Origin: Candidatus Aminicenantota bacterium
GTDB taxonomy: Bacteria; Acidobacteriota; Aminicenantia; Aminicenantales; UBA4085
Length of the DNA stretch: 64,000 nucleotides
Direction: 5' to 3'
Assembly: GCA_026393895.1 (NCBI GenBank)
Contig: JAPKZG010000092.1
Span: 1 to 64,000 of the forward strand
Within the stretch, counting starts at the first letter, position 1. Each line of letters opens with the position of its first letter. The notes below the pieces were generated by a model that had not been told where the DNA came from, made no database searches, and worked only from the letters and a program-made list of their open reading frames with translations. The position numbers were made by a program, and so were the translations under genes. This document shows positions 35,067 through 36,833 of the stretch, in pieces.

Positions 35067-36833
35067 CTAGTCCCTCCGGACTTCAAAGAGGACGGTATTT
35101 TCGGCGATCTCCTTCAAACTCCGGCCGGCCGTTCCGCGCGGCAGGATCCAGCAATGGGCTTTTTTCCCCTGGAAATAATCCATGGCGTGGGTGATGACCC
35201 GGTGCAAGGGAACGCTCTCGCGGACGACCAGGTTGGCGACGATCATCAGCCAATTGATCGAATAATGGCTGATGTTCGACCCGCCGCGGAGGAGCTGGGT
35301 CACGGACGGTCCGGCGGTTTTCTTCTTGGCGTGGCCGAAGTCAGGGGCCTCGGGTTTCCCGACTGTCTTGAGTCCGGCCGACCGGGCTGATGCCTTCGCC
35401 CAGGCCGCCACCGCCCCGCAGGACGAGATGCGGTCGAAATCGCAATCGAAAATATCCATGACCAGCTCGAAGGCCGGTGAAAAACCCGTCTCGACCGGGA
35501 GCCGGAACGACGGCTTGAAAACTTCCGACGCTTCGGCCAGGCGGGGACGGAGAACGGCCGAAGCGGGGGCGTCCGCCGCCGCGGCGGCCTCATAAATCCG
35601 GGTGTCGCGGCGCACGTTCCTGATGTCCGAAAAAACCCCCCGCGGCAGATGCCAGCAGACGGCCTTGTCGACGCCGAAATATCCGATCGTGAAGGCCGCC
35701 GCCTTCTCCCGCGGCAGCCGGGCGCAGGTGAAGCAATTGGCCGCGGCCACGTTCCCGAACCGGCGGTAATTGATGGCGCTCGTTTCGATGTACTGGACGA
35801 GCGTATCGCCGTCGCCCATTTCGGGATTCGAAACCATCGGTTCGCCGAAGGGAATCATATCGATCGCCTTGCAGAGATCGCGGCTCCATTTGCCGACCTG
35901 TTTGAGGGAAGGTTTCTTTTTTTCGGGGAGGACGAAGTCCAGGGCGATTTCCTCGCCGTATTTGTCGATCTCGAGCCGCCGTTGAAACTCCGGGTACGGA
36001 ACGGCTGAAATATCGGGCGAATACCAGCTGGTTTTGATCCCAGCGGCCTTGAAATTGCGCCGGGCGTTACGCTCGGCGAACCTGAACGTGCGCCTCCCAC
36101 GCGATCCCGCGGTCAGGCTGAACGGCCCGCCCATGTAGCTGACGTTGGTGAATTGGACGACCCGGACATCGTCAAAAATGCACTCCATCTGCCGCCAGCT
36201 CCCCGGGGCCTCGAAGGGCTGAAGGAGAAGGGCGCCGGTCTGGTGGATGGTGATGCCGCCTTCGCGGAGGGCGGCGTAGACGCTCTCGTAAAAACTGGTG
36301 TCGAACAGGCTCCGGGCCGGGCCGATGGGATCGGTCGAGTCGATGATAATCACGTCGCATTGGCCCTTCATCTTCCGGATAACCTCGGCTCCGTCGCCGA
36401 TGATCAGATGAAAACGGGAGTCGTTCCAGATCCCCCCGGAAATCGCCGGCAGGTGCTCGCGGCAGGTGTCGACGACGACCTGATCGATCTCGGCCATCGT
36501 CACGCTCTTGACACCGGGATGGCGGAGAACCTCCCGGGCCACGCCGCCGTCGCCACCGCCGATAATCAGGACGTTTTCCGGCGTTTTTTCCCGGGCGAAC
36601 AACGGCCAGAGGCCGATCCACTCGTGATAAATGCCCTCGTCCTCCTCGGTCAGCTGGACGATCCCGTCCAGAACGAGGACGCGCCCGAACCTCTCGGTAT
36701 CGAGAATCATCAGCTTCTGAAAACCCGTCGGTTTTTCGGGAACGACGACCCGCTTGACCTTGAACCCGTAGGTCACGTCCGTATAGAGGTCTTCGTAGAA
36801 CCAGAGTTCCTTGCCGCGTTTCACCAGGCCCAT
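35067..36833 (-). CDS. Spermidine synthase fused to two AdoMetDC-like domains
   Basis: This 588-residue protein starts MGLVKRGKELWFYED, with AAGGAAAGG about 10 bases upstream. Residues 1-285 are a spermidine synthase (SpeE) with GGGDGGVAREVLRH (92-105), AEID and IIIDSTDPIGPA. Residues about 294-413 and 455-588 are two SpeD/AdoMetDC-like domains, each ending CWxLPRG (393-399 and 561-567), which suggests duplication. Domain A keeps FTC370 but reads IETSAI where SpeD has ESH. Domain B has ISH (521-523) but lacks the FTC cysteine. Typically SpeE uses decarboxylated SAM made by SpeD, so fusion would channel it. Whether either SpeD domain self-cleaves to a pyruvoyl enzyme is uncertain. Confidence 0.85.
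   Translation of the reverse strand: MGLVKRGKELWFYEDLYTDVTYGFKVKRVVVPEKPTGFQKLMILDTERFGRVLVLDGIVQLTEEDEGIYHEWIGLWPLFAREKTPENVLIIGGGDGGVAREVLRHPGVKSVTMAEIDQVVVDTCREHLPAISGGIWNDSRFHLIIGDGAEVIRKMKGQCDVIIIDSTDPIGPARSLFDTSFYESVYAALREGGITIHQTGALLLQPFEAPGSWRQMECIFDDVRVVQFTNVSYMGGPFSLTAGSRGRRTFRFAERNARRNFKAAGIKTSWYSPDISAVPYPEFQRRLEIDKYGEEIALDFVLPEKKKPSLKQVGKWSRDLCKAIDMIPFGEPMVSNPEMGDGDTLVQYIETSAINYRRFGNVAAANCFTCARLPREKAAAFTIGYFGVDKAVCWHLPRGVFSDIRNVRRDTRIYEAAAAADAPASAVLRPRLAEASEVFKPSFRLPVETGFSPAFELVMDIFDCDFDRISSCGAVAAWAKASARSAGLKTVGKPEAPDFGHAKKKTAGPSVTQLLRGGSNISHYSINWLMIVANLVVRESVPLHRVITHAMDYFQGKKAHCWILPRGTAGRSLKEIAENTVLFEVRRD

Follow-up and report, generated by a model that had tools for sequence, protein, structure and literature searches.

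A spermidine synthase fused to two SpeDC-like domains that share out one set of catalytic residues in Candidatus Aminicenantota

The fusion gene and its carriers

The window (the whole 64,000-nucleotide stretch of DNA analyzed here) carries on its minus strand an open reading frame of 588 codons, which runs from an ATG at position 36833, with the Shine-Dalgarno-like AAGGAAAGG just upstream, to a stop codon at 35067. Its product joins a spermidine synthase (SpeE) to two SpeD-like domains, here called D1 and D2. Catalytic positions are numbered after Thermotoga maritima SpeD (S55, S63, H68, and C83).

35067..36833, minus strand: speE-D1-D2 fusion gene, 588 aa plus stop, predicted 65.6 kDa
35964..36833, minus strand: SpeE (aminopropyltransferase) domain, residues 1 to 290, with motifs QLTEEDEGIYHE, GGGDG, and DSTDPIGPA intact
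35583..35960, minus strand: D1, first SpeDC-like domain, residues 292 to 417, predicted to supply the pyruvoyl serine and the cysteine
35070..35474, minus strand: D2, second SpeDC-like domain, residues 454 to 588, predicted to supply S55/H68 and the DFGHAKKKTxGPS loop

Residues ~1 to 290 match spermidine synthase (PF01564, 7e-44; NF002010 above its cut-off), and the PF01564/PF17284 domains together with the GGGDG, YHE, and DSTDP motifs identify this part as SpeE; in some homologues of the fusion, GGGDG is replaced by GGGDC. The SpeD-like domains span residues ~292 to 417 and ~454 to 588 and end in CWHLPRG and CWILPRG, in line with an earlier sequence-only reading, which had described a SpeE domain followed by two SpeD-like domains each ending in CWxLPRG. 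In all three segments compared, pN is well under pS.

Scanning genome contigs with the single protein gave no matches, and scanning with an alignment recovered homologues. Of the 142 genomes from the class (Candidatus Aminicenantes), 24 have the D1-D2 region at E < 1e-100: 10 belong to the window's family (f1) and 14 to a single genus (g13) in family f6. Most named records with the region are assigned to Candidatus Aminicenantes or Acidobacteria, with one labeled Brevinematales and one Chrysiogenales. One genome (G400), with its D1-D2 and SpeE frames on separate contigs, is counted as a D1-D2 carrier and not as a proven fusion. Among the neighboring genes, which were clustered and only partly annotated, no polyamine-related neighbor shared beside the fusion was obvious. 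The D1-D2 copy with SpeE in the metagenome-assembled genome (MAG) labeled Brevinematales (Spirochaetota; L018:6001-6915) is the earliest-branching one and may reflect either horizontal transfer or a mislabeled bin.

Since the window genome is itself a MAG, a chance fusion, a frameshift, or another annotation or assembly artifact had to be considered. Many genomes, obtained in independent studies, share this architecture, and it is under purifying selection; such recurrence refutes the artifact, to which we assign a negligible probability.

Kinship and residue partition of D1 and D2

By a canonical class-1b AdoMet decarboxylase (AdoMetDC; SpeD) we mean a ~120-aa domain scoring above the cut-off and combining the [S/E]ESH processing site, H68, TWPE, and TCG. 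The fusion holds no such domain: TIGR03330 does not match, PF02675 (AdoMet_dc) matches the window protein in D1 only and below threshold (19.4 bits versus a cut-off of 25), and the characteristic residues are lost. D1 and D2 instead resemble SpeDC, a pyruvoyl-dependent L-ornithine decarboxylase derived from AdoMetDC, of which a Gln, a Thr, a Phe, and a Tyr are diagnostic (Li et al. 2023, PMC10407285); the alignment positions given here for these four residues are our interpretation of that text. Nonfused relatives are single domains of ~115 to 120 aa from Desulfobacterales, Omnitrophota, and others. These single-domain proteins, recognized as SpeDC-like by the published diagnostic residues, speD/speE gene context, and grouping rather than by assay, show GYSLVQLIETSSITGHFSE..RTAYINIFSC, which holds S55, S63, H68, and C83 along with all four diagnostics.

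A profile of the single-domain SpeDC-like proteins scores D1 at a median of 40 bits and D2 at 60, versus 5 and 4 for the canonical SpeD profile, and hhalign E values follow the same pattern (D1, 9e-20 versus 2e-4; D2, 1e-20 versus 2e-3). Profile comparison thus indicates that the kinship with SpeD is remote yet real. In the tree, a 100/100 branch separates D1, D2, and the SpeDC-like proteins from the canonical SpeDs, the inner order being unsure because of long branches. Profiles and tree therefore agree in grouping both domains with SpeDC and apart from SpeD. Furthermore, the AdoMet-binding residues E62 and E72, which are Glu in 19 of 19 canonical SpeDs, are absent from the SpeDC-like proteins, D1, and D2 wherever counted. 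Two of the four SpeDC diagnostics, Q347 and T351, are retained in D1, and the Phe and Tyr (F69 and Y77) are gone; D2 keeps Q513 and has Tyr524 at the position of the Phe.

Eight SpeDC-like loci have speD and speE close by, in the order speD-speE-speDC in seven of them; relatives in f6 that lack the fusion show speD-speDC-speE. A SpeE-SpeDC fusion would be expected to descend from the speD-speE-speDC order, as seen in Desulfobacterales and Omnitrophota relatives. A search for phage SpeDC relatives with an Omnitrophota query found none. Two genomes (G386 and G385) encode, besides their speD-speDC pair, a further SpeD homologue, HAKGTSAVQFILTSSIVIHT...FSC (L119:2129-2512, plus strand; L120:2156-2539, minus strand), which sits on a very long branch adjoining the SpeDC-like proteins.

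The residue counts below refer to 23 aligned C-terminal sequences, that of the window and 22 from genome contigs.

35778..35780, minus strand: Ser352, predicted self-cleavage/pyruvoyl residue (S63), Ser in 23/23; the model strand breaks just before it
35724..35726, minus strand: Cys370, putative catalytic acid (C83), Cys in 23/23
35763..35765, minus strand: Arg357, replacing His68 in the presumed dead half-site of D1, Arg in 23/23; register from strands
35802..35804, minus strand: Thr344, replacing Ser55 in the same half-site of D1, Thr in 23/23
35304..35306, minus strand: Ser510 (S55; human S229), Ser in 23/23
35265..35267, minus strand: His523 (H68; human H243), His in 23/23
35280..35282, minus strand: Gly518, replacing the processing serine, so that no pyruvoyl group is expected from D2, Gly in 23/23
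35220..35222, minus strand: Arg538, replacing Cys83, unconstrained (R, Q, T, K, N, or D among homologues)

At S55, S63, H68, and C83, D1 reads T, S, R, and C in all 23 sequences; at the first three, D2 reads S, G, and H, again in 23/23, with six different residues at the C83 position. All four catalytic residues are thus retained, every one of them in one domain only, and S63, H68, and C83, which share one domain in SpeDC, are split between D1 and D2 throughout. The invariant stretches are TLVQY[IV]ETSAI.YR in D1, where IETS352 falls on the processing motif in the alignment with SpeDC-type decarboxylases, and APDFGHAKKKT.GPSV.Q....GSNISH in D2. The complementarity of the missing residues had been recognized in the sequence-only reading, with the roles of serine and histidine misassigned. 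Its statement that D1 keeps the cysteine of FTC370 is borne out; the processing site that it believed lost is present as S352 in IETS, even if the letters ESH are absent. For D2, it was right about the lost cysteine and mistaken in taking ISH (residues 521 to 523) as a processing site: both the alignment with SpeDC and the strands of the model place G518 at the processing position, and H523 corresponds to H68.

The model of residues 292 to 588 is confident (pLDDT 91.4, pTM 0.92) and contains the SpeD fold twice. The strand starting at S352 matches the one starting at G518, and the fifth position on is R357 in the former and H523 in the latter, so the D1/D2 register is supported independently of the sequence alignment. 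A single modeled domain fits T. maritima SpeD (1tmi, TMt 0.86), and the D1-D2 pair fits human AdoMetDC (1msv/1jl0) across ~320 columns, which answers the earlier call for structure prediction of both domains. A PDB sequence search with D1-D2 gave no match. The full-length model reached a pLDDT of 75 overall on a shallow alignment, and its SpeE portion is too weak for use.

In human AdoMetDC, the pyruvoyl Ser68 lies in the N-terminal half together with Cys82, and Ser229 and His243 lie in the C-terminal half; D1 and D2 are partitioned alike. T. maritima Ser55 and Ser63 correspond to human Ser229 and Ser68 (PMC3975893), and the halves of eukaryotic AdoMetDC share out catalytic residues whose union is the bacterial pattern (PMC1282579). 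Because the partition equals that of the human enzyme, D1 and D2 very likely form one composite pyruvoyl site together, a possibility already raised in the sequence-only reading.

Each domain taken alone lacks two of the four catalytic residues, which could also mean that D1-D2 has no catalytic activity and is a module for regulating or oligomerizing SpeE or the separate SpeD, as the trypanosome prozyme does (PMC5201418); the model also matches AdoMetDC/prozyme structure entries. A dead module would have no need to retain S352 and C370, however, and the losses are exactly complementary: none of the 23 sequences departs from the four kept residues, in contrast to the free drift at the lost Cys83 position in D2. 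We regard this alternative as very improbable.

Other polyamine genes and the probable substrate of the proposed composite site

The fused SpeE is the only SpeE match above 30 bits in the window genome, which also encodes a separate canonical SpeD (128.8 bits), the intact speD that the sequence-only reading had proposed to search for. At L001 (905-1366 and 1468-1896, both plus strand), this canonical speD follows a gene that by eye resembles an Lrp/AsnC-type regulator, and it lies away from speE. Canonical SpeD is present in 9 of the 10 f1 carriers and absent from the 14 g13 carriers. A second type of protein, of ~410 aa and two domains, has EESH...NTCG in its N-terminal half; its C-terminal half matches PF01536 weakly, close to the cut-off.

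L147:2523-3743, minus strand: ~410-aa class-2-like AdoMetDC candidate (also at L145, L146, and L148 to L154)

This candidate for a divergent class-2-like AdoMetDC occurs in 18 genomes out of 142, and PF02675 matches none of these 18. They comprise all 14 g13 carriers (in one of which the protein is a fragment), two further genomes of g13, and two of the window's genus (G360 and G362). Its association with a missing PF02675 match (Fisher P = 6e-11, uncorrected for kinship) covers at least two lineages. All 24 carriers hence have a canonical SpeD or a class-2-like candidate besides the fusion.

A different arrangement is seen at L109 to L113 (G380, G381, G371, G333, and G332), with two-domain SpeD proteins of 278 to 334 aa and opposite polarity: the N-terminal domain keeps S55/H68, has GG for ES, and has no Cys, and the C-terminal domain has all four residues (MIAESHISLH...FDIFSC). 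In G380 and G381, this protein is the only SpeD family member found. A related frame in G146 (L114) has an apparently frameshifted N-terminal part.

The sequence-only reading had envisaged one chain that makes and uses decarboxylated AdoMet (dcAdoMet), with the composite site acting as a true AdoMetDC. SpeE requires dcAdoMet, AdoMetDC-aminopropyltransferase fusions are known in Pelagibacter (PMC11107197), and the g13 carriers lack canonical SpeD. This last argument is weakened by the PF01536 search, which found the class-2-like protein in SpeD-less carriers, so that the g13 carriers and G362 have that candidate instead. As both AdoMet-binding Glu residues are gone, the canonical SpeD profile barely recognizes D1 and D2, the domains group with SpeDC, and nearly all f1 carriers keep their canonical SpeD, we consider an AdoMetDC activity unlikely. 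The earlier reading had also named, as what would count against it, a canonical speD elsewhere together with loss of all pocket residues in both domains; the former is the case and the latter is not.

Since every carrier holds another AdoMetDC or a candidate for one, putrescine supply is the natural task for the composite site, a reasoning that Li et al. applied to SpeDC (PMC10407285). In the window genome, a draft MAG that is 93% complete, no OKR-type, alanine-racemase-type, or pyruvoyl ornithine or arginine decarboxylase (ODC/ADC) and no agmatinase scored over the cut-off, and these families are likewise missing from 14 of 14 g13 carriers, also draft MAGs. A recognized ODC/ADC is absent from 18 of the 24 carriers, absence never being certain in MAGs. 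In the other six, all in f1, a further possible ODC/ADC is encoded, be it a PLP decarboxylase from the ODC/ADC/LysA family, an OKR-type enzyme, or PvlArgDC; the putrescine argument is consequently strong only for the window genome, three other f1 carriers, and g13. One fusion carrier (G363:C132; L135 and L139) has a pyruvoyl arginine decarboxylase gene adjoining an agmatinase-family gene.

The loss of F69/Y77 in D1 and the invariant HAKKK of D2, an unusual basic run, mean that the substrate could differ from ornithine. The site may act on L-arginine, yielding agmatine and then N1-aminopropylagmatine, or on some unknown substrate: SpeD homologues have turned into arginine decarboxylases several times (PMC10407285), and agmatine can serve as a substrate for most of the bacterial spermidine synthases tested (PMC11107197). 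Against this, D1 retains the Gln and Thr that distinguish SpeDC from SpeD and ADC, and agmatinase was not found in the window genome or g13. Such a substrate seems to us a minor prospect, and ornithine is the probable one. The new SpeD function suggested in the sequence-only reading thus came close, the likely activity being one already known for SpeDC.

From the homology, residue partition, conservation, fold, and genome context computed here, we infer a course of events, from self-cleavage and site geometry to ornithine decarboxylation and channeling, that would run as follows. Within the chain, the duplicated SpeDC would fold into a pseudodimer that holds a single composite site. D1 would self-cleave at T351/S352 to generate the pyruvoyl group and contribute Cys370; D2 would provide the DFGHAKKKTxGPS loop along with Ser510 and His523, and the mirror-image site would be dead. 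L-Ornithine would be decarboxylated to putrescine, onto which the attached SpeE would move the aminopropyl group of dcAdoMet supplied by the separate SpeD. Taken as a whole, this account of a bifunctional polyamine enzyme, a SpeE with a duplicated SpeDC and one split site that makes and uses putrescine, is the one we favor with reasonable confidence.

Comparison with known systems

SpeDC, SpeD-SpeDC fusions, and AdoMetDC-aminopropyltransferase fusions are already known. The window protein resembles SpeDC in the ancestry of both domains, the IETS motif of D1, the S55/H68 loop of D2, and the Gln and Thr diagnostics; it differs in distributing over two domains, with SpeE attached, the four residues that SpeDC holds in a single ~120-aa domain, and in having lost the Phe and Tyr diagnostics from D1. 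SpeD-SpeDC fusions, including degenerate C-terminal ones of Lentisphaerota (PMC10407285), likewise have two SpeD-family domains per chain, one of them incapable of self-cleavage. In those proteins the N-terminal domain is a genuine AdoMetDC, and SpeE is encoded by a gene of its own, whereas both domains of the window fusion appear SpeDC-derived, with reciprocal losses and SpeE at the N terminus. The Pelagibacter fusion (PMC11107197) also combines a SpeD-family decarboxylase and an aminopropyltransferase in one chain, but in the opposite order and with a single class-1b AdoMetDC domain that makes dcAdoMet. Our searches, which covered the main text of openly accessible papers, found neither a SpeE-SpeDC-SpeDC' protein nor reciprocal half-site loss in bacteria.

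The closest likeness is to the eukaryotic class-2 AdoMetDCs (human and potato), with which the fusion shares duplicated fused halves, the pyruvoyl Ser and the Cys in the N-terminal half, the Ser and His in the C-terminal half, the fold, and, in all likelihood, one composite site. PF01536 (class-2 AdoMetDC) does not match the fusion, which is thus an analogue rather than a member of that class: its origin is separate and SpeDC-type, the AdoMet-binding Glu residues are absent, SpeE is fused to it, and its substrate is probably ornithine, not AdoMet. It has long been argued that eukaryotic AdoMetDC arose when two bacterial half-enzymes fused and then lost opposite residues. In the prokaryotic fusions of Li et al. 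(PMC10407285), the N-terminal domain stays a complete AdoMetDC; in the family described here, reciprocal loss has gone to completion in bacteria, apparently independently and within the ornithine decarboxylase branch, in steps open to bench tests. We lean toward a scenario in which duplication of a pyruvoyl ornithine decarboxylase and its fusion to the C-terminal side of SpeE were followed by subfunctionalization into complementary half-sites, so that the design of human AdoMetDC evolved again from a different ancestor. The result would be a candidate enzyme leading from ornithine to spermidine within one chain, possibly with channeling of putrescine, and it may account for the missing putrescine source of a lineage that has received little study.
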